A stretch of 37,336 nt of DNA, from NCBI GenBank assembly GCA_018818595.1, contig JAHIRM010000032.1:1-37336 (forward strand), written 5' to 3'. This document shows positions 4,140 through 37,019 of this stretch, piece by piece. Below the pieces are notes generated by a model that was not told where the DNA came from, did no database searches, and saw nothing but the letters and a program-made list of their open reading frames with translations. Position 1 is the first letter of the stretch; the number at the start of each line of letters is the position of its first letter. This DNA comes from Bacillota bacterium. GTDB lineage: Bacteria > Bacillota_I > Bacilli_A > Izemoplasmatales > Hujiaoplasmataceae. The position numbers and the translations under genes were made by a program.

Positions 4140-4976
4140 CTACTTTTCAGAATTGTATAATAGCGTAGAAAGATCAACCTTTTCGAAAACATTTAGCTGA
4201 CCGTTAATTGTGGCATCCTTTATGATTTTTTTTTCATACTCAAATACTCGTTTAGCAATTCGATAAGCGTACTCCTCAGATTTTAAGTCTGGTGCATCCC
4301 AAGTCATATTAGGTTTATAATATCCCTTAATAAAATGATTTTCTTCGTTTCCATCACTTAAAATAGGGACTCCTACTTTTTCATCAGTGTTATATGTATG
4401 ATCTTTTCCGATTAAATAAACCTCATCAAACCCCATAAAATATGCTAACTGAATACACGCGTAAGTAACTGTCTTACCACTACCGTACGGCTCCTTAACT
4501 AAATCTTTAGAAAACTTGGGATTTAATTTTTCTTTTAAGAATATGTGCCTGTTTTTATGCTTAAAAACATTCCTCAAGTCCCAATTGTAAAATGCGGGGA
4601 AATCTATATTATCATAATCATCCGTAAATTGAAGCGTCTGTGATTTTTTATCTATACAAACTAAATATGTAGGTACGAAACCATTTACTTCCTTCATCAA
4701 ATATATTCTGTTCATACCGATTGTTATCTCATTCTTTAATTTTCCAAAGTCGACATACTTTAAACTCGGACCGTTAGCTATGATGAAGACTCTTTTACCA
4801 GCATGAATATCTTTATATTTAGCCAATCGATTTCTATTCTCCTCAGCAAATCCAAAAGGTAGTTTCCACAAAAAAAATTGTGGGATATTAGCTAACCTCC
4901 TGAAAAAGGCTAAAATAATTCTTTTAAAGGTGATATCTTTTCGTGCCAAAGTGAAAAATCTTTTGATATTTTCCAT
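4140..4976 (-). CDS. DUF115/MptE-like protein, related to motility accessory factors (possible glycosyltransferase)
   Basis: A 278-residue protein with the core of the DUF115 family: VFIIANGPSL at 63-72, then EITIGMNRIYL (83-93) and, later, VYLIGKDHTY. Known members include MptE pterin kinases and the motility accessory factors that transfer nonulosonic acids to flagellin. In this cluster, next to CMP-nonulosonate genes, a glycosyl- or glycerophosphotransferase role is more likely than a pterin kinase (inference). The basic, aromatic N-terminus (1-45) suggests peripheral membrane contact. The ATG is preceded by AGAGGA at a 9-base spacing. Gaps of nearly 300 bases on both sides make it look like a separately inserted cassette. 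Confidence 0.6.
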   Translation of the reverse strand: MENIKRFFTLARKDITFKRIILAFFRRLANIPQFFLWKLPFGFAEENRNRLAKYKDIHAGKRVFIIANGPSLKYVDFGKLKNEITIGMNRIYLMKEVNGFVPTYLVCIDKKSQTLQFTDDYDNIDFPAFYNWDLRNVFKHKNRHIFLKEKLNPKFSKDLVKEPYGSGKTVTYACIQLAYFMGFDEVYLIGKDHTYNTDEKVGVPILSDGNEENHFIKGYYKPNMTWDAPDLKSEEYAYRIAKRVFEYEKKIIKDATINGQLNVFEKVDLSTLLYNSEK

Positions 4977-13203: not shown

Positions 13204-14136
13204 TTACTTTTTAAAAATATCATTATAGTTTATGACGGGAAAGACATCAAGAAAACTATCAGGCGAAGCATTTAATATTTCAATTCCCATTTTATCAAGG
13301 GCTTTTTTAAGCACCTTATATGCTTTCCAGACAGTCACCGCTTCACGACAATAGAAATCATAATCACCATGAATGGTGGACCCTACTTCTTCCTCAATAA
13401 GTGCGTCCTCTTTTTTAAAAAAATGAGTTGTACTCCCTCGCTGTGTAAGCCAGTCGTGATCGAATCCCAAAAGATAAATCGGATTACAACCCATATATAC
13501 CGCAGTAATTATTGCAGTCACTCCAACAGTCTTGGAGCTTGGAATATTTCGGGTCAAGTCAAAATTTACATTCCGGACTCTGTGAAGTTCTTTACCAAAT
13601 GAAATAAATTTTGTTCTGTCCAAAGGGAATAGTTGTTGTGTTTCAATTATTTTTTTTTCTCTTAATCTCGTTAATAAAGTAGATTTTTTAGAGATCAATT
13701 GAAATTCTGAAAAATATTTTTTCCATGAATCAGATTTTTGGTACTCCGTCTCAATAGGATGAACATAACATATAACTTCGGGCTCCCATTTAGTAAAATC
13801 ATAATGCTGCCAAATGGAATTTACTCCTATTGTAACTTCTCCATTTAGAAGATCAAGATCAACTTTATTTAATGATGGTCCCGTCGCAAGAATAAAGCAT
13901 CGCTGATTTTTGTATTTATGTTTGAGTACATTGTTTTTCTCTAATAATTTCTTATCAGCTTTGTTTATCCATTTGCTGGGTTCAATTAAATCTGATGCTA
14001 TTGTGCTATATCTGGCAAGTAAGCAAAATAATTTTGACACAATTTTTCGGAATGTAAAGTTTGGATGTAAAAAATATTCATAAATTTCATATTGCATAGA
14101 ACACTCGTTTAATAAATTAATTAAGCTGGAAGACAT
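13204..14136 (-). CDS. DUF115/MptE-like protein, related to motility accessory factors (possible glycosyltransferase)
   Basis: A second, divergent member of the DUF115 family, 310 residues. The core reads CFILATGPSLNKVDLDLL (80-97), EVTIGVNSIW (100-109) and IYLLGFDHDWL, followed by a conserved-looking RGSTTHFF. It shares the GPSL and T-I-G-x-N blocks with the protein at 4140-4976 but little else, so it is not a recent duplicate. Motility accessory factors of this superfamily transfer pseudaminic or legionaminic acid. Given the NeuB, NeuA and PseB genes in the same cluster, transfer of a nonulosonate or related group is a fair hypothesis. A pterin or thiamin kinase role cannot be excluded by sequence alone. 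Confidence 0.6.
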   Translation of the reverse strand: MSSSLINLLNECSMQYEIYEYFLHPNFTFRKIVSKLFCLLARYSTIASDLIEPSKWINKADKKLLEKNNVLKHKYKNQRCFILATGPSLNKVDLDLLNGEVTIGVNSIWQHYDFTKWEPEVICYVHPIETEYQKSDSWKKYFSEFQLISKKSTLLTRLREKKIIETQQLFPLDRTKFISFGKELHRVRNVNFDLTRNIPSSKTVGVTAIITAVYMGCNPIYLLGFDHDWLTQRGSTTHFFKKEDALIEEEVGSTIHGDYDFYCREAVTVWKAYKVLKKALDKMGIEILNASPDSFLDVFPVINYNDIFKK

Positions 14137-18312: not shown

Positions 18313-19068
18313 TTATCTGATGTCTTTTTGTTTTATATTCGAGTTTATTCGGACAAATTCCGGCTTTTGTTTTAGAAACTCAACTATTTCTTTAATTCCA
18401 AATAATTGATTAGAAGGATACAAATTTTCATAGATATAACTAATAAGCTTATAATCTTCTTGCGTATCTAATGTTAATCTTAATTCAGGCCACATCTCAT
18501 CTGAACTTGCCGTAACATCTATCATCTTATATTTATTCCTGTTTTCATTCAGCTCAAGTGTAACGTGTTCATGATAAGCCGGATCAGTTGAGGAAGTATT
18601 AATTTTTTGTAAGGTTGCTAATCGACAAATTTCAGCTTCTGTGCCCACAGGCCAAGATTCTTTCCATGAATTTGATGCATAGTCAGCATTATTCTTGAAA
18701 TAAGCAGAAATGACACAATCGACGACGTAAGGATCTATTATTGGACTATCACCATTTACAATCACAACGTGCTCCGAATTCGAAATTTCACCGGCTTTTA
18801 CAGTCCTGTCCAAGACATCATCTTCACTACCTGAAAAACAAAGAACTCCATTCATTTTCGCACATTCTCTTATTTTATCGTCAGTATTATTTGTGGTGGT
18901 CGCCACAATAATTTGATCAATAAATCTGCTTGCTTTCAGTCGATTTATGATATGTTCTAATGATGGTATCCCACACAGCAACGCCATGGATTTACCAGGC
19001 ATTCTGGACGAATTCATTCGAGCAGCTATGATTGCAGTAATTAATCCTTTATTATTTTTTGCGTACAT
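18313..19068 (-). CDS. SpsF-like cytidylyltransferase family protein (second copy)
   Basis: A 251-residue protein of the CTP_transf_3 family. AAIIAARMNSSRMPGKSM is the nucleotide-binding loop with the family's R-x-x-S-x-R-x-P-x-K pattern; VNGDSPIIDP is the metal-binding Asp region; HEHVTLEL and LRLTLDTQEDYKLIS are blocks shared with Bacillus SpsF. It is related to but clearly different from the SpsF-like protein at 30301-31068, in which the metal site reads VTADDPFKDP. Family members activate keto-acid sugars with CTP or are otherwise involved in nonulosonate glycans; the substrate is unknown. It sits between the flippase and the oxidoreductase genes. Confidence 0.78.
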   Translation of the reverse strand: MYAKNNKGLITAIIAARMNSSRMPGKSMALLCGIPSLEHIINRLKASRFIDQIIVATTTNNTDDKIRECAKMNGVLCFSGSEDDVLDRTVKAGEISNSEHVVIVNGDSPIIDPYVVDCVISAYFKNNADYASNSWKESWPVGTEAEICRLATLQKINTSSTDPAYHEHVTLELNENRNKYKMIDVTASSDEMWPELRLTLDTQEDYKLISYIYENLYPSNQLFGIKEIVEFLKQKPEFVRINSNIKQKDIR

Positions 19069-27506: not shown

Positions 27507-28072
27507 TCCTGATACTCTAATGCAAATTCATATGATGCCAGATGACCAAGTGAAGAATATTTATCAATTCTTTTAAACTCATTTTCCAGCAAATTAATTC
27601 TTTTCCCCCATCCAGTTTCATCATACCAAGCTAAATCTTTAACAGGCGCGTTATAGATAATTAACTCGGGATATTTTTTCTTAACAATCCCTAAAAACGT
27701 TAAATAAGCCCTATACTGGTGATAATGTGAAGCAACTAGTATTATTTTTCTCCATTTGTTTTCAATAGCTAAATTGACTATTTCTTGAGCTTGTTCGAGA
27801 GTATTGGTCGATTTTCTTTCATGGAGAATTTTATTCTCAGGTATTCCTGCATCCTTAAAATGGGGTAATATTTTTGTAAGAGGAAAACTTCCATACGCCG
27901 GGTCATCAATTTCACCTGAGAATACTATAAGATCACTCATCCCTTGATTATAGATCTCAACAGCTCGCTTAATTCTGTACCAACCATCTCCCTCTAATAT
28001 CACGATTGCGTCAGAAGGTTTGATAATATCATTGTCCACAAGTATGATATACTGTTCTCTTGTTGTAATCAT
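27485..28072 (-). CDS. YdcF/SanA/ElyC-family protein (DUF218)
   Basis: A 195-residue DUF218 protein. The family blocks are all readable: DAIVILEGDG..R (normally -x-VLGGG), DLIVFSGEIDD, the STNTLEQAQ motif and VASHYHQYRA near residue 123. Unlike SanA and ElyC, it has no N-terminal membrane anchor, so it should act in the cytoplasm. The biochemical role of the family is poorly known; some members affect envelope assembly. Start ATG overlaps the NeuB stop as ATGA, and its end overlaps the unknown gene downstream. A link to sugar or lipid-carrier metabolism is suggested by context only. Confidence 0.85.
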   Translation of the reverse strand: MITTREQYIILVDNDIIKPSDAIVILEGDGWYRIKRAVEIYNQGMSDLIVFSGEIDDPAYGSFPLTKILPHFKDAGIPENKILHERKSTNTLEQAQEIVNLAIENKWRKIILVASHYHQYRAYLTFLGIVKKKYPELIIYNAPVKDLAWYDETGWGKRINLLENEFKRIDKYSSLGHLASYEFALEYQEWKEKQV

Positions 28073-29133
28073 ATATTTTCCCAGTAAATTGGACTATCCG
28101 CATCAATATCATTTTTCGCAACTTTTCCAGCAACAATATTTTTGAATTTTGGCAAAACACCTAATGCTGGTCTTAATTCAACGATATCCTCCAACCTAAT
28201 GATATTACCTTGTGCAATTTTCTTATTTGTATATAATCCTCTTCTCTGAACAATAACAGTCTCACTTTCTTCTTCTACGACAACTTTTCTCGAAGTACCT
28301 AATGCAGCTTCAAGCTCTTTAATATATTCAACCATCTTTTTAAATTCATTTGCATCCATTGAATGTGGGTGATCAGGTCCAGCATCTGTCTTATCAAGTG
28401 TAAAATGCTTTTCAATTACTTTAGCTCCTAATGCTATTGCCCCAAGAGCAACAACAGGTCCGGGAGAATGATCTGAATAACCCACCATGATGTTGAACGC
28501 AGTTTTATAGTTATCCAGAACACGAATATTTGCGCTTTCAATTTTGGAAGGATAGTTAGTAATACACTGCATTAGCATTAAATCGGTATTACCAGTCGAT
28601 TCGATTACTTTCAAAGCTTCATCAATTTCTGCCATAGTTGCATCGCCGGTTGCTAAAAACATAGGTTTGTTTTTACGGGCAATGTAATCAAGCATTTCAA
28701 GCCACGTAATTTCTCCCGATCCGATTTTGATGAAAGGTAAATCAAGTTGTCCACAAAGATCTACTGCTTCAAAATCATAAGGTGATGTTGAGAAGTGTAT
28801 ACCAATTTCTTTACAATAATCATTCAATTCTTTATGCCATTCTCTTGGAAATTCTGCATCTCTGAATACTTCATGGACAGGTCTTCCCCAACTCCCATGG
28901 ACACCCTTCAATTGCATTTTTGCAAATCCACCTGCCGACACAATTTTTTCTGCCCTAAAACTCTGGAACTTTGCACAATCAGCCCCACATTCCTTTGCTG
29001 AAAAAATTAATCGTTTTGCTTTATCAATGTTACCATCGAAATTTGCACCTATATCAGCAATTATATAGCAGGGTTTATCTTCACCAATAGAACGATCGCC
29101 TATTTTAATTACTTTTGGAAATGCATTTTTCAT
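28069..29133 (-). CDS. NeuB/PseI/SpsE-family nonulosonate synthase with SAF domain
   Basis: A 354-residue synthase that would condense PEP with a 6-carbon N-acyl sugar to give a nine-carbon 3-deoxy-2-keto acid. The barrel has IIADIGANFDGN (usually AEIG-x-NHNG; here NFDGN), AKFQSFRA, FSTSPYDF, VGYSDHSPG, IEKHFTLDK and GPDHPHSMD, all active-site or metal regions. From about residue 290 follows a full SAF domain (RGLYTNKKIAQGNIIRLEDI). The His of the N-terminal NHNG being replaced by Phe-Asp is unusual. With PseB and a DegT aminotransferase directly upstream, a pseudaminic-type acid is the leading guess. ATG with AGGGG upstream. Confidence 0.9.
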   Translation of the reverse strand: MKNAFPKVIKIGDRSIGEDKPCYIIADIGANFDGNIDKAKRLIFSAKECGADCAKFQSFRAEKIVSAGGFAKMQLKGVHGSWGRPVHEVFRDAEFPREWHKELNDYCKEIGIHFSTSPYDFEAVDLCGQLDLPFIKIGSGEITWLEMLDYIARKNKPMFLATGDATMAEIDEALKVIESTGNTDLMLMQCITNYPSKIESANIRVLDNYKTAFNIMVGYSDHSPGPVVALGAIALGAKVIEKHFTLDKTDAGPDHPHSMDANEFKKMVEYIKELEAALGTSRKVVVEEESETVIVQRRGLYTNKKIAQGNIIRLEDIVELRPALGVLPKFKNIVAGKVAKNDIDADSPIYWENI

Positions 29134-29141
29134 AAGAACCC

Positions 29142-30314
29142 CTAAAAGCTGTTTATTGTTTTGTTTAATATTTCTGCTTGATTATAAGCTTCTTCTAAAT
29201 TCCAATAATTTGTCTTAAATTGTATCATTCTTGGTTGTAAGTACTCAGCATTCGGGCATAAACCTGTTTTGTATTTTTGCCACACACCGCAATAATTTTG
29301 TACAATATTGATAAATAATGGCTCCATATATGATAGTTTCCAAGCCGCATAAAAACCATCTCCACCATTTTTTTGAAATGAATCTCTAAATTTATACCAA
29401 TCCTTCTCAGGATTTTTTGTATCAAGCACAACGCTGTAAGACCAATAAGTATTTTTATAACCATCTGGAACAAGTTGCTTTTTAAGAAGAGATTGATTAT
29501 TCACAACCTCATCATATATTGAAGCAACTTTAATTCTCTGTTCAACTAACTCTTCAACTCTTTCTAACTGACCCAATATTACGGCTGCGTTAACCTCCGC
29601 CATCCTATAATTAAACCCAAGCGAGATGTGTCTGCTATAATTCGGATCCTGAATATCATTTCTAGAGATTTTTCCTTGTTTAGAGTTTACTCCGGCATAA
29701 CCTAAGCTACTAAATTTCCTTGCCTTATCAGCAAGTATTTCATCATCAGTAATTAAAATGCCACCTTCACCACAAGTGATATGCTTACTTGCCTGAAAAC
29801 TGAAAGAAGCACAATCACCAAATTGTCCAACCTTTTTACCTTTGTATGTTGCAAAGAGAGCTTCAGCATTATCTTCAATCAGGTAAAGATTATTTGAATT
29901 ACACAACTCTTTTATTACATCATATTCAGGAGAGAGCCCGTATAAGGCAACAGTTATAATAGCTTTAGTCCGGTGAGTAATTTTATTTTTTATTGATTCC
30001 GGATCAATGTTAAATGTATTAATATCAACGTCGGCAAAAACCGGCATGGACCCATTTTGCAATACTGCTATTGCAGTACTAGACATGGTTAATGGTGGAA
30101 CGATCACTTCATCGCCAGCCCCCACTTCTAACGCATTGAGTGCTGTGTGCATCGTTTGAGTACCATTTACATGATTAATTGCGAACCCGACATCATGAAT
30201 TTCAGCAAATTTTTTTTCCATTCTACTACAAAACACACTGTTTTTTGAGGTTTGAAATTCATTGTTCAGGGCATCCATTACATAATTTTTCTCGATATCA
30301 CTAATTCTTTTCAT
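29142..30314 (-). CDS. PLP-dependent DegT/DnrJ/EryC1/StrS aminotransferase (PseC/SpsC position)
   Basis: A 390-residue sugar aminotransferase. NGTQTMHTAL (50-59) binds PLP phosphate, EDNAEA (147-152) carries the ring-contacting Asp, and Lys177 in FQASKHITCGEGG is the Schiff-base residue; VNAAVILGQLERVEEL is the usual C-terminal helix after FNYRMAE. In the cluster it stands where PseC stands in pseudaminic operons, next to PseB, and would turn the 4-keto sugar into a 4-amino sugar. It differs markedly from the DegT enzyme at 16014-17318, so they serve separate routes. It overlaps the SpsF-like gene upstream by 14 bases. Confidence 0.9.
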   Translation of the reverse strand: MKRISDIEKNYVMDALNNEFQTSKNSVFCSRMEKKFAEIHDVGFAINHVNGTQTMHTALNALEVGAGDEVIVPPLTMSSTAIAVLQNGSMPVFADVDINTFNIDPESIKNKITHRTKAIITVALYGLSPEYDVIKELCNSNNLYLIEDNAEALFATYKGKKVGQFGDCASFSFQASKHITCGEGGILITDDEILADKARKFSSLGYAGVNSKQGKISRNDIQDPNYSRHISLGFNYRMAEVNAAVILGQLERVEELVEQRIKVASIYDEVVNNQSLLKKQLVPDGYKNTYWSYSVVLDTKNPEKDWYKFRDSFQKNGGDGFYAAWKLSYMEPLFINIVQNYCGVWQKYKTGLCPNAEYLQPRMIQFKTNYWNLEEAYNQAEILNKTINSF

Positions 30315-31068
30315 TACTCATCCCTTTTCTATACATATCACTCCTTTCAACTCCAGAATTTATTTCACTTATCCAAGAATTCACCTCCAGTAACTGGAGA
30401 ATATCCCTGAACAAAAATACTTCCTTATCATTAAATAAGTATTTATAGACAGTTCTTGCCATTTCTAAATCTTGTACCTTATCAATTGTCCATCTAAGAT
30501 GGGATAAGTCTGAATGATAAGAGCAGTTCCCTTGCTTAATTAATAAAGGATTCTTGTAAAAATACTGAGTCACATGTTCATGTTCGAAGGCATCTGTGGA
30601 TGTCTCATAGGCCTTTTTTAGTGCTTCCATGGTGAATACTTCAGTATCTAAACCTTCAGGATAAGAAGGTGGATTATTGTTGTATGCAAATTCAAGTTTT
30701 TCTTCAATCATAAAATCAATAACTTCATCAGTTATTTCAGGATCTTTGAAAGGATCATCTGCAGTTACTCTAACGATAATATCAGTATGACTCTCCAAAG
30801 CCGCAAAATAATATCGCTCAAGAACATTATTCTCACTACCTCTAAAAGATTTTATATTATTTTTGCCGCACCATTCGCCTAATAAATCATCTTCTTTATT
30901 AATCGTGGTTGCAACTACAATATCGTTGATTCTCATGCTTTTTTTGATTCTATTAATAATATGCCAGATTAGCGGATACCCTTCGATTTCAGCAAAAGTC
31001 TTATTTGGCAATCGTGTCGAATTAAGTCTTGCTTGTATTATTGCTGAAATTACCAAATCAATCTCCAT
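30301..31068 (-). CDS. spsF: SpsF-like cytidylyltransferase family protein
   Basis: A 255-residue member of the CTP_transf_3 family in the SpsF branch. SAIIQARLNSTRLPNKTF is the nucleotide loop, RVTADDPFKDP the metal site, HEHVTQYFY and LRWTIDKVQDLEMART the two diagnostic C-terminal blocks. Bacillus SpsF lies in the spore-coat polysaccharide operon with SpsC (aminotransferase) and SpsE (NeuB), exactly the combination found here, so CTP activation of the product of the neighbouring synthase is likely. The ATG overlaps the pseB stop region by 11 bases; the order pseB-spsF-aminotransferase-neuB is compact. Confidence 0.85.
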   Translation of the reverse strand: MEIDLVISAIIQARLNSTRLPNKTFAEIEGYPLIWHIINRIKKSMRINDIVVATTINKEDDLLGEWCGKNNIKSFRGSENNVLERYYFAALESHTDIIVRVTADDPFKDPEITDEVIDFMIEEKLEFAYNNNPPSYPEGLDTEVFTMEALKKAYETSTDAFEHEHVTQYFYKNPLLIKQGNCSYHSDLSHLRWTIDKVQDLEMARTVYKYLFNDKEVFLFRDILQLLEVNSWISEINSGVERSDMYRKGMSNEKN

Positions 31069-32098
31069 AGATTATATCGTTGGCACCGTCAACATTTTTG
31101 ATTGTTAAATCTCTTATTTCATCAACCGTTAGAAAAATATCATTCTCACTACTATTGTAAGAAAATCCTAAATCACAATTATGCCCTTCCTTCCCGTTAC
31201 TTTCTTTTCTGAATTTTTTAATATCCCAAAACTTTGTTGATGGAAGAATAACGAAATAATCATCAAATTCTATACTACTTATGGAATCTGTGGAGGTGAT
31301 CATTTCTTCATGAAGTTTTTCCCCAGGTCTAATACCGACGATTCTTGTCTCAATGTCTGGTGCAATTGCTTTTGCTAAATCCATAATATTATATGAAGGT
31401 ATTTTTGGTACAAATAATTCTCCTCCCCACATACGTTCAAGATTGTCAATAACAAAATCAACTCCTTTTTGTAGTGTAATATTGAAACGAGTCATTCTTT
31501 CGTCGGTAATCGGTAGAAACCCATTTTTCTTGTGGTTAAGAAAATACGGGATAACAGATCCACGACTACCCATGACATTCCCATATCTCACGACTGAAAA
31601 TTTAATATTTCTCCACCCCTTGTAATTATTGGCTGCAACAAAGAGCTTATCAGAAGTAAGTTTTGTAGCACCATAAAGATTGATTGGCGCCGCAGCTTTA
31701 TCAGTGCTTAGTGCTATTACTTTTTCTACCTTATTGTATAGTGATGCATCAATTACATTCTGTCCGCCAATAACATTGGTCATTACAGCTTCAAAAGGAT
31801 TGTACTCACAGGCAGGGACTTGTTTCAAAGCAGCCGCATGAATAACAATATCAACATCCTCCATGGCTCTTTTTAATCGATTTAAGTCACGAACATCACC
31901 AATAAAATATCGCATAATATTCTCAAAAGGTTTGAAAGCATCTGATTGTTGCATTTCAAACTGTTTTAATTCGTCACGACTGAATACAATTACCTTCCTT
32001 GGTTTGTAGCGATCAAGAATTGTTTTAATGAATTTTTTACCAAATGATCCGGTACCACCGGTAATTAAAAATGTTTTATCTGAGTTCAAACTTTTCAC
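31058..32098 (-). CDS. pseB: UDP-GlcNAc 4,6-dehydratase (inverting), PseB
   Basis: A 346-residue SDR of the FlaA1/PseB type, soluble because it lacks the membrane domain of CapD/PglF. GGTGSFGKKF (14-23) is the NADP loop, FSRDELKQFEM (39-49) the cofactor-specificity loop, HAAALKQVPACEYNPFEA the substrate loop, and TDK (132-134), Tyr142 and Lys146 the catalytic set. RYGNVMGSRGSVIP is diagnostic. It commits UDP-GlcNAc to the pseudaminic-type pathway by forming the 4-keto-6-deoxy-L-altro sugar. The start may be GTG at 32098 or TTG at 32089, the latter with GGTG six bases upstream. Tail of about 60 residues after the GIRPGEKLHEEM block is variable. Confidence 0.94.
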   Translation of the reverse strand: MKSLNSDKTFLITGGTGSFGKKFIKTILDRYKPRKVIVFSRDELKQFEMQQSDAFKPFENIMRYFIGDVRDLNRLKRAMEDVDIVIHAAALKQVPACEYNPFEAVMTNVIGGQNVIDASLYNKVEKVIALSTDKAAAPINLYGATKLTSDKLFVAANNYKGWRNIKFSVVRYGNVMGSRGSVIPYFLNHKKNGFLPITDERMTRFNITLQKGVDFVIDNLERMWGGELFVPKIPSYNIMDLAKAIAPDIETRIVGIRPGEKLHEEMITSTDSISSIEFDDYFVILPSTKFWDIKKFRKESNGKEGHNCDLGFSYNSSENDIFLTVDEIRDLTIKNVDGANDIIYGD

Positions 32099-32240: not shown

Positions 32241-33188
32241 TTAGCTATTATTATTTGAAACCCCTTTTCCATTCTTTTCAACTAAAAACCCCTCATTTTC
32301 CCTCAATTCATCATGGATGTTTTTGTGAACCTCCCCAATAAGATTCAATAAACCTTGACCCAGGTCTATATGTGGATTATTAACCAACTTGCGTGCTATC
32401 TTTGGATTGAATGAGTAAGGAGAAAGTTTATAATGAGTTTTAGATTTACTTTCTTCAAGAATGATACTGACTTTATTATGTAGAATTTCCCTGATCATGT
32501 TAAGGAGATCAAGATATTCAATGGAAGAATTTCCAGTTAAAAGAAGATTTTGATTTGAATACTTGGGATCCAGAGCTTTAACACTTAGATCTGCCGCATC
32601 CCTAATATGAATAAACTCTCTTTTCTCGTTTCCCTGACCATGATAAACAATTTTTTCCTCTTTCAAGGCATCTTCAATTAGCCTATGAATACTGTTTCTC
32701 CGGTCAGCTCTTTCTCCATACAACGATCCAAACCTTAGAATAACATAATCCAAGTTAAATTTTTCCTGGTACCCTTCAATAATAAGCTCTGATGCTTGTT
32801 TGCTTATTCTGTAAAAGGAGCCAGTATCACTATAAACGTAAGCGGAACTAGAAAATAAAACTTTTTTAACCTGATTTTTAACACACGCTTCCAGTATATA
32901 GGTAGTGCCTAGAATATTATTTTTAATCGCATCAAGAGGCTTTTCTGCGCATTCATCTATGTCTGCCATGCCTGCCAAATGATAGACGTAATCGACATTT
33001 CTCGTTGCTTCGTCCAGTTTTTTTTCATCGAGAATATCACCAATAATCTGGGATTGGTTATCTTTTAAGTGAGGTGACATTTTCTGATCAAAAATGGTCA
33101 CATCGTAGTCAGCATCAGTTAGCGCATCCGAAATGTGGCTGCCCAGAAACCCGGCACCACCAATAACCAATACTTTTTCTCTATTCAT
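32241..33188 (-). CDS. NAD-dependent nucleotide-sugar epimerase/dehydratase, extended SDR
   Basis: A 315-residue extended SDR. VLVIGGAGFLGSH is the NAD loop, FSSSAYVYSD the active-site Ser region and YRISK the Tyr/Lys pair, so the catalytic set is present. KREFIHIRDAADLSVKAL is the common substrate-site motif. I start at the ATG at 33188, which overlaps the upstream stop by eight bases and has GGGAGGAG further upstream; a GTG 45 bases earlier would only add residues buried in the neighbour gene. Co-translation with a D-2-hydroxyacid dehydrogenase and CMP-transferase suggests that it modifies an intermediate of the same unusual sugar-acid route. The substrate is unknown. Confidence 0.86.
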   Translation of the reverse strand: MNREKVLVIGGAGFLGSHISDALTDADYDVTIFDQKMSPHLKDNQSQIIGDILDEKKLDEATRNVDYVYHLAGMADIDECAEKPLDAIKNNILGTTYILEACVKNQVKKVLFSSSAYVYSDTGSFYRISKQASELIIEGYQEKFNLDYVILRFGSLYGERADRRNSIHRLIEDALKEEKIVYHGQGNEKREFIHIRDAADLSVKALDPKYSNQNLLLTGNSSIEYLDLLNMIREILHNKVSIILEESKSKTHYKLSPYSFNPKIARKLVNNPHIDLGQGLLNLIGEVHKNIHDELRENEGFLVEKNGKGVSNNNS

Positions 33189-34164
33189 AATCAGCTTTAT
33201 TCTCCTCCCAGGCATCATGTTTAGGTTTTTCACCTTTTAGTACCCTTATACAGTCTTCTGCTGCCCCTAATTCCATTAAGTACCTGGACTCTTTTGCGGA
33301 GGCCCCCATATGAGCTGTTAAAATAATATTCTCCAATCCTGCAAGCGGTCCATCATAAGGTTCTTTTGCAAAAACGTCCAATGCGGCCCCCTCAATGTGC
33401 TTCTGTTTAAGAGCATCATACAAGGCTTCCTCGTCAACAATATTTCCTCTTGAAGTATTTACTAAAAAACTTGATGATTTCATAGAGGCGATTGCTTTCC
33501 GGTCAATGAAATGGTGGTTTCTCTGATTATATGGAATATGAACCGTTATTAAATCCGCTTCCCTTAAAATTGATTCTTTTTCATGCCATTCAAGATTATA
33601 ATGTCGCCCAAATTCAAGATCTGGATTAATATCACAAGCAAGTATATTTGTGTTAAAAGGCTGTAATAGTTTTACTAATATTTTCCCGATTCTTCCAATT
33701 CCTATGACTCCAATTTTTATTTCTTTGAGAAGATAACCTATATATCTATTCCAGGCCAATTGTCGTACTGAATGATCGGACAACTGCACGAATCTTACTA
33801 AACTTATAATGTTAGCTAAAGTAAGTTCCGCAACACCTTGCGATGGAGCATCAGGTGTATAAGTAACCATTATTCCCAGTTCCTTTAGCTCCTTCAAAGG
33901 AACATTGTCTAAACCTATCCCAACCCTTGAAATTACTTTAATATTCGCAGACTTGAGAGCGTTGATCATATATGGCTCAGTACCTGCAATAACTGCATCA
34001 ACATCCTGAATTAATTCTTCGACTTCACCAGCCTTTAATCTACGTGCATGGGGATTAAAGATTAATTCGCATCCATTTGCTTCAAGTATATCAAGCGGCT
34101 CGCGGTTACTCTTACCAAAAGGATAAGTAGCAATTAGAATTCTGTTTTTTTTAAGAGTATCCAT
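33181..34164 (-). CDS. D-isomer-specific 2-hydroxyacid dehydrogenase (SerA-like)
   Basis: A 327-residue NAD-dependent dehydrogenase. GVIGIGRIG (152-160) binds NAD, and the catalytic triad reads Arg239 (NTSRGNIVDE), Glu268 (FAKEP) and His285 (TAHMGA). VGIGLDNVPL is the substrate-side loop shared with phosphoglycerate dehydrogenases. The regulatory ACT domain of SerA is absent. Such enzymes interconvert 2-keto and 2-hydroxy acids. Within this cassette the natural candidate is a 2-keto-3-deoxy sugar acid or its precursor, rather than 3-phosphoglycerate, but this is inference. It lies four bases after the CMP-transferase stop. Confidence 0.89.
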   Translation of the reverse strand: MDTLKKNRILIATYPFGKSNREPLDILEANGCELIFNPHARRLKAGEVEELIQDVDAVIAGTEPYMINALKSANIKVISRVGIGLDNVPLKELKELGIMVTYTPDAPSQGVAELTLANIISLVRFVQLSDHSVRQLAWNRYIGYLLKEIKIGVIGIGRIGKILVKLLQPFNTNILACDINPDLEFGRHYNLEWHEKESILREADLITVHIPYNQRNHHFIDRKAIASMKSSSFLVNTSRGNIVDEEALYDALKQKHIEGAALDVFAKEPYDGPLAGLENIILTAHMGASAKESRYLMELGAAEDCIRVLKGEKPKHDAWEENKADYE

Positions 34165-34168
34165 ATAC

Positions 34169-34849
34169 TTATGTCTCTTTTGAATATAGTGCCATTAGTT
34201 CAGCAAGCTTGAAAGTAAATTCATCATCAATATCAATAGACTCAATCTTGGGAATCTCATACAGCAGAGGTTCAGATCCTATTCTGGTTTTTCTTTTCTT
34301 AAACGATTCTTTACTAAATATATATAAACAAGAATTCTCTTCATAAAGAGGTGGTAAATCCTGAGTACGGAGTAACTCCTCTGCTTTGTGATTCACAGGA
34401 ATTCCATTTTGGTCATAAAATCTACTCTGAAACCTATTTACGGAAAACAAAGAATCGTTTGAGTTTCCACTTTCTAAAAACTTTCTTAATGCTGAAGCGA
34501 TAGTCTCTGATTTAATTAATGGATTAGTGGCATGCGTCTGTAGATATATATCCCCTTCAGTTTTGGATATATCATGTTCAATTATTTTATTAACTGAGAC
34601 AAAATCACCTATCAAATCTTGCGGCCTATCATGGATCCTGACCTTGCTAAATAATTGGGGTGCTTCATTCATAACGACATGACTATCTGTATTAATTATA
34701 ACTTCATCCACGGCGTATGTGCGTTCAAGTGTATTCAATATGTGGTGGTAAAGTGGTTTATCACCAAACATTCTAAAATTTTTATTTTTAACTCTTTCAC
34801 TGTGTTCTTTAATTGGGATTAAAGCTATCACTATTTTATTCTGAATCAT
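34169..34849 (-). CDS. CMP-sugar-acid cytidylyltransferase (acylneuraminate/KdsB-like)
   Basis: A 226-residue CTP_transf_3 protein. IPIKEHSERVKNKNFR (12-27) is a variant of the NeuA loop IPARxGSKxIPxKN, in which KEHSERV replaces ARGGSKG; INTDSHVV, LQTHATNPLI and IDIDDEFTFKLAE are the other conserved blocks, including C-terminal acidic residues for Mg2+. It should activate a 3-deoxy-2-keto acid as its CMP derivative. The K-E-H-S-E-R-V variant is found in a distinct subgroup of the family, whose substrates are not established to my knowledge. It overlaps the aldolase gene as ATGA, which ties activation to the aldolase product. Confidence 0.86.
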   Translation of the reverse strand: MIQNKIVIALIPIKEHSERVKNKNFRMFGDKPLYHHILNTLERTYAVDEVIINTDSHVVMNEAPQLFSKVRIHDRPQDLIGDFVSVNKIIEHDISKTEGDIYLQTHATNPLIKSETIASALRKFLESGNSNDSLFSVNRFQSRFYDQNGIPVNHKAEELLRTQDLPPLYEENSCLYIFSKESFKKRKTRIGSEPLLYEIPKIESIDIDDEFTFKLAELMALYSKET

Positions 34850-35607
34850 TTTTTCATTTCCTTAATCTGATTAACACCCTCTCTGAAAAATTTACCTATT
34901 ACTGTGATATCTAAACTATAGGCAATAAACTTAAATCCGGCTTGAATTTGGTTTATTACGTTTTCAGGCTCCGGCTGGACTACATGAATTCCGGGCATTA
35001 GATTATGCTTTTTTGCTTTCATTAAGATTTCATTTTTAACTTTTATGAATTCCGGATTGTTAAATTGTCCTGTCATTCCCATTGACGCAGATAAATCATA
35101 GGGCCCAATAATCATTGCATCAATTCCATCCACGGAAAATATATCGTCTAAATTTGCGATGGCATCTAAGTGTTCAATCTGCACACAAACAAAAGTTTCC
35201 TCGTTTGCATTCTTCATGTACTTGTCAAATGAAAAGCCATAACCATGACTTCTTCCAAATCCAACACCTCTTGTGCCAAGAGGAGGATACTTAACAGAAT
35301 CAACCAGGTACTCAGCTTGCTCAGCATTGTTAATCAAAGGAGCTATTACACCCATTGCACCAAGATCAAGATACTTTTTCGTCACTTCGTAGTTATTCCC
35401 AGGTAATCTGACGAAAGGGAGACATTTTGGATTACCAGCTTGTATAGCTTGAAAAATTTGTTGGCAAATTTGAAAATCCGCAACAGAATGTTCTGTATCC
35501 ACAACCAGGAAATCAAATCCACAATTGCTCATTATTTCCGCAACAACCGGGCTAGCAGTATTGATCCAACTTCCAAGTAAAAATTCTTTGTCGTTCGTTA
35601 TCTTCAT
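34846..35607 (-). CDS. HpcH/HpaI-family class II pyruvate aldolase
   Basis: A 253-residue metal-dependent aldolase. Readable active-site residues are His40 (VVDTEH), Arg67 (PFVRLPG), Glu145 (VQIEH) and Asp171 (GPYDLSASMG), the two acidic ones being the metal ligands. The length equals HpaI. Members cleave or form 2-keto-4-hydroxy acids from pyruvate and an aldehyde. In a catabolic setting it would break down such an acid; here, coupled to a CMP-transferase and among glycan genes, it may form a 2-keto-3-deoxy sugar acid, taking the part normally played by NeuB or KdsA. ATG with GAGAAG three bases upstream. No PEP-mutase motifs are present. Confidence 0.9.
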   Translation of the reverse strand: MKITNDKEFLLGSWINTASPVVAEIMSNCGFDFLVVDTEHSVADFQICQQIFQAIQAGNPKCLPFVRLPGNNYEVTKKYLDLGAMGVIAPLINNAEQAEYLVDSVKYPPLGTRGVGFGRSHGYGFSFDKYMKNANEETFVCVQIEHLDAIANLDDIFSVDGIDAMIIGPYDLSASMGMTGQFNNPEFIKVKNEILMKAKKHNLMPGIHVVQPEPENVINQIQAGFKFIAYSLDITVIGKFFREGVNQIKEMKK

Positions 35608-35674
35608 TTTCTTCTCAAAATAATTTCACCTAATATTAAATATGCCAAATGAAACAAACTTACTACTTAATATA

Positions 35675-36328
35675 TCAATTAATCAGGTTGTCAGAAATGG
35701 ACATAAGTTCAAAGTAATCTTCAAAACTACCTAGAATACCTGGCAATTTAAGCATACTTTGGTTAAAAGTAGTTCTCCTTAAAATAAAAGGAATATCAAA
35801 TTTTGTGGCAGCTTCATAGTCAGTGTTTGAGTCACCAATAAAAATACATTTTTCTATGGATATTTTTCCATTATCAATTAAATACTTTATCCAATCAATT
35901 TTCGATGTTGGCGATCCTAGAACATCTGAAAAATGATCTTTAAGGCTTTTTCGATTAACAATTCTTATCAACTCATCTCTTGGTGTGGCGCTTATCACCT
36001 TATAGTCAATACTTGATTTATAAAATCCTATAAATTCCGTAAGTCCGGCCACAAGTGGGGCACTTACAACGTTATCTATTACTAAAAATGAAAATCTATC
36101 AGCTAATTCCATTAATTCTCTATTTGTTAATTCCTTCTCCAAAAAGTTCTTATGATAAAATTTGATTTTTTCATACCTTGATATTCCAAGGTTATTTTCG
36201 TGATGCTTTACAACCATATCCGCAATATCTGATCCAAACGGAAGATATAATTTATGAAACGCCTTTGTTTTCTCATGGATTGACTCGCAAATAACCCCAT
36301 CAAAATCAAATAATATATGATCAATCAA
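35675..36328 (-). CDS. HAD-superfamily phosphatase
   Basis: A 217-residue HAD hydrolase with a helical cap. FDFDGV near the N-terminus contains the nucleophile and acid Asp, ISATPR the motif II Ser/Thr, a Lys before the last sheet (SKIDWIKYL) motif III, and GDSNTDYEAA motif IV. It is the phosphoglycolate-phosphatase-like class. Both possible starts are TTG; I prefer 36328, giving MIDHILFDFDG, because GAGG lies six bases upstream and the overlap with the cyclase gene is only eight bases; the other is at 36343. In the cassette it could remove a phosphate from a sugar-acid intermediate, as KdsC or NANP phosphatase do. A 67-base gap separates it from the aldolase. Confidence 0.85.
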   Translation of the reverse strand: MIDHILFDFDGVICESIHEKTKAFHKLYLPFGSDIADMVVKHHENNLGISRYEKIKFYHKNFLEKELTNRELMELADRFSFLVIDNVVSAPLVAGLTEFIGFYKSSIDYKVISATPRDELIRIVNRKSLKDHFSDVLGSPTSKIDWIKYLIDNGKISIEKCIFIGDSNTDYEAATKFDIPFILRRTTFNQSMLKLPGILGSFEDYFELMSISDNLIN

Positions 36329-37019
36329 CCATAACCTCTGCAAATACAGTCACAGGCGCACCATCAGAATCTTTAAATCTAAGTGGAGAAACCAGTATCT
36401 TTCCGAAAACAGTGGAAGAATCCACGTTAGAAAGGTCCATATCTTCCACAATTAAAAGGTCATTTTTAATTAGAAATTCATTGTGGGCAATTCTCCCAAC
36501 ATCCCTATTTTTTGCCCCGGAAAGTGACATGGAATCAAAACCGATTATCTTTAGTTCAGGACATTTTTGCTTTAAATAAGTTGCAAGTTCCGGATGAAAA
36601 CCTGGATTTGACTCATAATAAGCAGCTTGATTTCTGATATACGTATAATGTGTCTTAATGATTATAAATTCGGTTTTCTCACAAAGTTCATATTCCTGAA
36701 AGTGATCTGTAAGTATCAGTTCTGTTTCATCTTCCAGACAATTAATTTCGACTAATTTTATTTCCGAAAAGATAAAAGCCCCGGCTCTATAATTTTCCCC
36801 TTTATTCCCGCTATCTGAAAAGTGGTATGGGAAGTCTATATGCGTTCCAAAGTGAGAAGAAAGTGAAAGATGCGAAGTGTTACAACTGGCGCTTTCACTT
36901 ATTTTTTTTTTCTTCTTCAAATTCAGGGCTTCTGTATTTCTATAACCTGTTAATTCTTGCGTAAGCAGATGTGATAAATAAATCCACTCGGTTTTCATTT
37001 GTTCGTACCAGCTTAACAT
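36321..37019 (-). CDS. Cyclase-family metal-dependent hydrolase (kynurenine formamidase-like)
   Basis: A 232-residue member of the cyclase family PF04199. The metal signature HFGTHIDFPYH (56-66) supplies His56, His60, Asp62 and His66, and later GFDSMSLSGAKN and AHNEFLIKNDLLIVEDMDL match the family's C-terminal catalytic and dimer blocks. Known members hydrolyse N-formyl amides (kynurenine formamidase) or cyclic esters and carbamates. Nothing around here points to tryptophan breakdown. In a glycan cluster it might open a lactone or remove a formyl or acyl group. The ATG has no Shine-Dalgarno and overlaps a tiny upstream frame. First gene of the aldolase cassette. Confidence 0.86.
   Translation of the reverse strand: MLSWYEQMKTEWIYLSHLLTQELTGYRNTEALNLKKKKKISESASCNTSHLSLSSHFGTHIDFPYHFSDSGNKGENYRAGAFIFSEIKLVEINCLEDETELILTDHFQEYELCEKTEFIIIKTHYTYIRNQAAYYESNPGFHPELATYLKQKCPELKIIGFDSMSLSGAKNRDVGRIAHNEFLIKNDLLIVEDMDLSNVDSSTVFGKILVSPLRFKDSDGAPVTVFAEVMVD

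Follow-up and report, generated by a model that had tools for sequence, protein, structure and literature searches.

How could a bacterium build a CMP-activated keto-acid sugar from a set of genes that encodes a pyruvate aldolase beside a CMP-transferase? Sugars of this kind cover flagella, capsules, and further surface glycans and play a part in recognition by hosts and phages, and the skeletons of neuraminic (Neu), legionaminic (Leg), pseudaminic (Pse), and 3-deoxy-D-manno-octulosonic (Kdo) acids are made by synthases dependent on phosphoenolpyruvate (PEP). We analyzed a stretch of 37,336 nucleotides (the window) that forms an entire contig (JAHIRM010000032.1) of a Bacillota draft genome (GCA_018818595.1, family Hujiaoplasmataceae), and in it a set of six consecutive genes, or cassette, which raises this question. 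Neither a NeuB-type PEP-dependent synthase nor KdsA is among the six genes; a NeuB is present in a separate downstream set, and the search for KdsA covered these six genes. Because the usual routes use a PEP-dependent synthase and the cassette has an aldolase, its gene content points to an undescribed sugar pathway. The reading that we favor, and consider reasonably probable, is that the cassette has spread horizontally and makes a CMP-activated 2-keto sugar acid (a ulosonic acid) distinct from Neu, Leg, Pse, and Kdo. The six genes are:

36321-37019, minus strand: cyclase-family metal hydrolase (PF04199), 232 aa, first gene of the set, assigned by Pfam and motif
35675-36343, minus strand: phosphatase-like hydrolase of the haloacid dehalogenase (HAD) family (PF13419), 222 aa, assigned by Pfam and motif
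34846-35607, minus strand: HpcH/HpaI class II pyruvate aldolase (PF03328), 253 aa, assigned by Pfam, residues, and fold
34169-34849, minus strand: CMP-transferase of the CTP_transf_3 family (PF02348), distinct subfamily, 226 aa, ATGA-coupled to the aldolase
33181-34164, minus strand: D-2-hydroxyacid dehydrogenase (PF02826/PF00389), phosphoglycerate/glyoxylate reductase-like, 327 aa
32241-33233, minus strand: extended short-chain dehydrogenase/reductase (SDR; PF01370) of the GalE-like epimerase/dehydratase family, 330 aa, probable start ATG 33188

The six open reading frames (ORFs) are complete and run uninterrupted on the minus strand (32241-37019), and the Pfam assignments of all six proteins exceed gathering scores. 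The aldolase stop and the CMP-transferase start overlap in an ATGA (34849-34846), the cyclase and HAD genes overlap by 23 bp, and gaps of 67 and 4 bp separate the HAD gene from the aldolase and the CMP-transferase from the dehydrogenase, respectively. The SDR and dehydrogenase genes overlap by 53 bp as listed, or by 8 bp if the SDR begins at Met16 (the presumed ATG at 33188). The six genes are likely packed as a single transcription unit. In the cyclase the motif reads SHFGTHIDFPYH, with the HxGTHxDxPxH pattern intact; the HAD protein carries FDFDG...SATP...K...GDSNTD, the dehydrogenase GIGRIG plus R81/E268/H285, and the SDR GGAGFLG plus Y141xxxK145. The ORFs, the Pfam scores, and our reading of the sequence confirm what the initial annotation had observed here, namely six minus-strand genes with intact motifs and an ATGA coupling.

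Recurrence of the aldolase and CMP-transferase pair

Five of the six genes (aldolase, CMP-transferase, dehydrogenase, HAD, and SDR) stand in a row on a plasmid of Acuticoccus sp. I52.16.1 (NZ_CP094833), where they are 31-45% identical to the window genes (HAD 31%, SDR 41%) and the aldolase and CMP-transferase genes overlap; the cyclase was not found in the Acuticoccus cassette. The same plasmid, at the cassette, is the sole match to the window SDR (E ≤ 1e-30) and to the window dehydrogenase (E ≤ 1e-40) among 72,556 plasmid records.

Used as a single query against genome contigs, the aldolase returned one relative only (L004), which lies with a dehydrogenase and without a CMP-transferase, and the phylum of this match, titled Verrucomicrobia, was chosen for a wider search. 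Relatives of the CMP-transferase occur in 12 of its 388 genomes, at up to 63% identity to the window protein (42-63% for relatives in other phyla), and in 6 of these 12 an HpcH gene is beside the CMP-transferase gene or one gene off. In these six, HpcH adjoins the CMP-transferase in loci L124, L126, L127, L128, and L129, and is one gene away in L123; the two genes are also adjacent in L007. Given that a genome with this CMP-transferase has zero to four HpcH genes among thousands of genes, we estimate the probability that chance explains the adjacency to be negligible. A census of HpcH genes revealed that the cassette copy is the only one in genomes G557, G621, G347, and G667. Dehydrogenases 57-62% identical to that of the window lie beside the CMP-transferase in L122, L123, and L124, and relatives of the Maf-like family PF01973 lie a few genes from it in L124, L125, L126, L128, and L129. 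The co-occurrence search that the initial annotation had proposed was thus run and found the HpcH and CMP-transferase neighborhood outside this genome, on the Acuticoccus plasmid and in the phylum of L004. The outcome that it had named as damaging, a neighborhood conserved nowhere else, was not observed, as the genes lie together in other phyla as well.

Of 295 genomes sampled from the host phylum, neither the 60 of the host's own family and order nor the remainder contained a close CMP-transferase, bar one match of 32% identity (G241), and phages yielded no match. Since no close relative of the host carries the CMP-transferase, we infer that the cassette moved horizontally; it was probably acquired in this way and is not ancestral in the host lineage.

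Viral contigs yielded two relatives of the CMP-transferase and two informative SDR loci, the SDR relatives being in L041 and L042 (both IMG/VR and putatively viral). L042 has the order aldolase, dehydrogenase, SDR, the latter two at 40-43% identity; L041 holds PseB, an SpsF-like gene, a class-III aminotransferase, a CMP-transferase relative, and the SDR. On two enterobacterial plasmids (L010 and L011), a CMP-transferase relative (32-34% identity) lies beside inositol-monophosphatase-family and NeuB-family genes in a capsule-type locus.

Residues and folds of the two enzymes

The aldolase scores 117.7 bits against PF03328 (gathering score 25) and falls below the curated equivalog cut-offs for HpaI (169 against 368.8 bits), GarL (149 against 406.75 bits), and RhmA (133 against 441 bits). 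Its H40, R67, E145, and D171 correspond to H45, R70, E149, and D175 of E. coli HpaI and are invariant in the aligned homologues. The structural model of the aldolase has a pLDDT of 90.8, and its best matches in the PDB belong to the HpcH/HpaI family (TM about 0.8-0.88); for the structural models, window and genome/viral rows were used and plasmid-derived rows were left out. In a tree of 35 aldolases, the window aldolase falls in a seven-member clade (support 100/98), five members of which adjoin a CMP-transferase. The exceptions, L158 and L159, have no CMP-transferase neighbor, and their genomes hold just one CTP_transf_3 gene. We considered L158 and L159 as a sugar-catabolic operon that could name the aldehyde; their neighbors (housekeeping genes, a peptidase, and a dehydrogenase in L158 or a YhcH-family gene in L159) give no substrate clue.

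A gene of the YhcH/NanQ family, a sugar-acid anomerase family, lies directly behind the aldolase in L126 (PF04074, 122.7 bits) and in L128, where it scores 86.7 bits against a cut-off of 45.5 (TIGR00022) but only 88.5 of the 160 bits set for the equivalog of the N-acetylneuraminic acid (Neu5Ac) anomerase. The window set has no YhcH-family gene; among the relatives, the gene is found in L126, L128, and L159. These genes behind the aldolase argue independently for a cyclizing 2-keto sugar acid as the compound that it handles. In E. coli, YhcH is an anomerase that feeds Neu5Ac aldolase (PMC8141875). HpcH aldolases take polyhydroxy aldehydes, e.g., glyceraldehyde and erythrose, and some accept hydroxypyruvate as the nucleophile (PMC7610986).

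The CMP-transferase scores 92 bits against PF02348 (gathering score 22.6) and lies below the curated cut-offs for PseF (83 against 205.7 bits) and KdsB (28 against 193 and 27.7 against 255 bits). Its fold is nearest to those of CMP-NeuAc, CMP-Kdn, and CMP-Pse synthetases (Foldseek, TM 0.74-0.84), with KdsB less close. The CTP/Mg2+ residues K23, N24, R75, D206, and D208 are retained. By contrast, residues R12, Q104, R165, and F192 of the N. meningitidis CMP-Neu5Ac synthetase, the last three of which function in Neu5Ac binding (PMC2901514), R165 at the carboxylate, are changed to K14, H106, T162, and R189; H106 is present in all but one of 15 rows, and T162 and R189 are invariant. The N-acetyl pocket residues F192/F193 correspond to R189 and I190, the pocket phenylalanines being gone. 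Single residues are not diagnostic, however, and R165 alone is not decisive, because a Ser takes the place of R165 in PseF (9ftb), and positions 189 and 191 are occupied by Arg and Gly in CMP-Kdn synthetase (9t4z). The changed residues and the lost N-acetyl pocket together suggest a substrate that is non-N-acetylated or more acidic. Its sequence thus sets this enzyme apart from KdsB and from a standard NeuA/PseF, with the CTP/Mg2+ residues kept and the sugar pocket rewired. The carrier genomes hold another CTP_transf_3 gene that scores higher than that of the cassette. A normal KdsB beside a purely catabolic aldolase, which the initial annotation had held up as a challenge to its own proposal, does not fit KdsB scores so far under cut-off.

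The surrounding glycan locus

The draft genome containing the window is 1.87 Mb long, 95% complete, and about 33% GC (genomes of host relatives: 0.7-2.5 Mb). The best PDB match of the host RpoB, at 1395 bits over its full length, is 6wvj, the B. subtilis enzyme; this match, the genome sizes, and the GC content point to a Bacilli lineage with small genomes. The draft yielded no SSU rRNA. The window as a whole has the appearance of a surface-glycan locus, with a sugar transferase, glycosyltransferases, Wzy-like and MurJ-like genes, two Maf/MptE-like genes, methyltransferases, and aminotransferases. A separate Pse/Leg-type set (28069-32098), absent from the initial annotation, adjoins the six-gene set downstream on the same strand; its four genes head the following list:

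31058-32098, minus strand: PseB, 508 bits against a curated cut-off of 408
30301-31068, minus strand: SpsF-like CMP-transferase, by profile score
29142-30314, minus strand: DegT aminotransferase, by profile score
28069-29133, minus strand: NeuB, by profile score
22754-24420: second NeuB with its own NeuA/PseF-like CMP-transferase
18313-19068: further SpsF-like CMP-transferase, adjoining a MocA-type oxidoreductase and a DegT aminotransferase
13204-14136, minus strand: second Maf/MptE-like gene (PF01973)
4140-4976, minus strand: Maf/MptE-like gene (PF01973), candidate user of CMP-activated acids

The 37-kb locus has four CMP-transferases, that of the cassette and three more. Given the ordinary Pse/Leg-type set next to it, the cassette would supply an extra activated acid rather than a variant of the NeuB route. 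L123 is arranged likewise, with the cassette followed by PseB, aminotransferase, and NeuB. Flagellin is an unlikely glycosylation target in this organism, because a search of the 95%-complete genome yielded no flagellin gene.

Proposed pathway, rival explanations, and parallels

In the pathway that we propose, the aldolase likely condenses an aldehyde with pyruvate (or possibly hydroxypyruvate) and thereby stands in for the PEP-dependent synthase. The HAD protein would probably dephosphorylate the aldol product or a precursor of it, by analogy with KdsC in the Kdo route and with a Leisingera plasmid locus (L023) in which a HAD hydrolase has an aldolase and a KdsB-like gene as neighbors. The dehydrogenase, SDR, and cyclase might prepare the aldehyde or keto-acid precursor: the dehydrogenase may supply hydroxypyruvate or oxidize an aldonate, the cyclase could hydrolyze a lactone or amide, and the SDR would be of the sugar epimerase/dehydratase type. 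The CMP-transferase, on the basis of its family, fold, and CTP/Mg2+ residues, likely uses CTP to activate the product at its anomeric carbon, and the CMP-sugar would then enter a surface glycan assembled through the cluster's Maf-like and polysaccharide genes. Maf-like enzymes are plausible users because characterized Maf enzymes use CMP-nonulosonates and CMP-Kdo (PMC11339370). We found no pathway with this gene combination in the open-access literature, in agreement with the initial annotation, which knew of none. If the proposal is true, CMP-sugars have a second chemical logic and at least one new member, and a compact enzyme pair makes them from cheap pyruvate. HpcH together with CTP_transf_3 is the corresponding annotation signature, which YhcH and Maf-like genes may or may not accompany. 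Further, and in our view improbably, the product may represent a new class of glycan sugar: a ulosonic acid from a class II aldolase, perhaps with hydroxypyruvate provided through the dehydrogenase (3-hydroxylated, not 3-deoxy), or a ulosaric (dicarboxylic) acid, with R189 perhaps binding the extra acid group.

Several observations weigh against the aldolase as the source of the acid. The CMP-transferase, the dehydrogenase, and a nearby GT2 glycosyltransferase occur with no adjacent aldolase in loci that we call type B (L125, L130, L131, and plasmids L005, L006, L008, and L009), some of which carry a classical SDR nearest to glucose 1-dehydrogenase/aldose dehydrogenase models; in L125, a PF04199 cyclase gene lies between the CMP-transferase/GT2 genes and the dehydrogenase. 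The census recorded not a single HpcH gene in genomes G509, G607, and G710, and the CMP-transferases of L131 (no aldolase) and L126 (aldolase) are 75% identical. Conversely, aldolases 67-69% identical to that of L128 occur without this CMP-transferase in G692 and G722, and aldolase and D-2-hydroxyacid dehydrogenase are paired without a CMP-transferase in L142, L144, L150, L161, L164, and L004, possibly as an ancestral module. The aldolase fold also hosts other chemistry (e.g., the citrate synthase SbnG), and an aldol reaction with free pyruvate is reversible, so that CTP use would have to pull it. Because type-B loci lack the aldolase, it is not the sole way to feed this family of CMP-transferases: either one acid comes from two sources (aldol and oxidative), or specificity changes more quickly than the sequence identity would imply. 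The window set combines parts of the aldolase-type and type-B loci. The claim of the initial annotation that a pyruvate aldolase replaces the synthase is therefore retained in part, with the conserved pair in glycan loci, the catalytic residues and fold, the non-KdsB CMP-transferase, and the YhcH genes in its favor and the aldolase-less loci against its strict version.

Those aldolase-less loci are the chief difficulty for the proposal and underlie its strongest rival, in which oxidation supplies the CMP-transferase with a 2-keto aldonic acid: the SDR would oxidize a sugar to a lactone, the cyclase would open it, and the dehydrogenase would oxidize C2, leaving the aldolase as a side branch, recycler, or alternative supplier. 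CMP-transferase and dehydrogenase are the most widespread pair, type-B loci add the SDR and (in L125) PF04199 without an aldolase, and 2-ketogluconate reductases are among the structures to which the dehydrogenase is related. We nevertheless hold this oxidative route to be unlikely, as L126-L129 pair aldolase and CMP-transferase without a dehydrogenase, cassette-type SDR, or cyclase in the fetched neighborhood, and D-2-hydroxyacid dehydrogenases usually favor reduction. It is quite doubtful that the aldolase instead breaks down surplus 2-keto-3-deoxy acid, or catalyzes some other reaction of the HpcH fold (e.g., a Claisen or decarboxylative condensation), while the acid for the CMP-transferase comes from elsewhere. 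Known HpcH aldolases are indeed catabolic (PMC7610986), the fold includes SbnG and macrophomate synthase, and the L158 and L159 aldolases lack a CMP-transferase, but the sole HpcH gene of four genomes is coupled to the CMP-transferase within a glycan locus, and no catabolic genes (for a kinase, dehydratase, or transporter) were recognized in the cassettes.

That the two modules are neighbors in the window and in L123, and that D-2-hydroxyacid dehydrogenases make hydroxy acids, would also fit a cassette that decorates the product of PseB, aminotransferase, and NeuB, e.g., with a D-hydroxy-acyl group, the CMP-transferase then activating the modified nonulosonate. We consider this very improbable, since L126-L129 and L007 have no adjoining PseB/NeuB set, the downstream set has its own SpsF-like CMP-transferase, and genes for acyl activation or acyl transfer are missing from the cassette. 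Ordinary Kdo or sialate metabolism, with a normal KdsB or NeuA beside an unrelated catabolic aldolase, might be entertained given the breadth of the PF02348 and PF03328 families. It is scarcely credible in view of scores far under the curated KdsB, PseF, and HpaI/GarL/RhmA cut-offs, the presence in the carrier genomes of separate CTP_transf_3 genes with higher scores, and the recurrent adjacency of aldolase and CMP-transferase.

The proposed aldolase-fed pathway resembles known systems in part. With the CMP-nonulosonate routes (Neu, Leg, and Pse) it would share a 2-keto acid sugar, activation by CTP_transf_3, and Maf-like or polysaccharide glycosyltransferases, but those routes use a NeuB-type synthase followed by NeuA/PseF where the six-gene set has an HpcH aldolase. 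The Kdo route (KdsA, KdsC, and KdsB) likewise has C-C bond formation, a HAD phosphatase, and CMP activation in order; the cassette aldolase, however, is of another family with another donor, and the CMP-transferase is far below the KdsB cut-offs. HpaI, GarL, and RhmA share their fold and their metal- and pyruvate-handling residues with the cassette aldolase, which, unlike them, is found in glycan loci beside a CMP-transferase and not in catabolic operons. Sialate catabolism by YhcH/NanQ and NanA also pairs an aldolase with a YhcH-family anomerase, as in L126 and L128, although the cassette aldolase has the HpcH rather than the NanA fold; being paired with CTP activation, it probably runs opposite to NanA catabolism.

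Relatives of the other hydrolases were less useful as guides to the pathway: those of the HAD protein in Azospirillum lie in unrelated contexts, leaving only the Leisingera locus informative, and the cyclase yielded one distant, uninformative match on plasmids. An HMGL-type aldolase (PF00682) lies beside a CTP_transf_3 gene in L023 (4625-7627), where the HAD hydrolase is of the cassette kind, and in L040 (892-4218), a viral contig that has a PfkB kinase. These two loci are like the cassette in placing an aldolase beside a CTP_transf_3 gene, and unlike it in that PF00682 is unrelated to HpcH; to our knowledge, their function has not been described. The parallel suggests that aldolase-fed routes to CMP-activated acids may be a wider theme.

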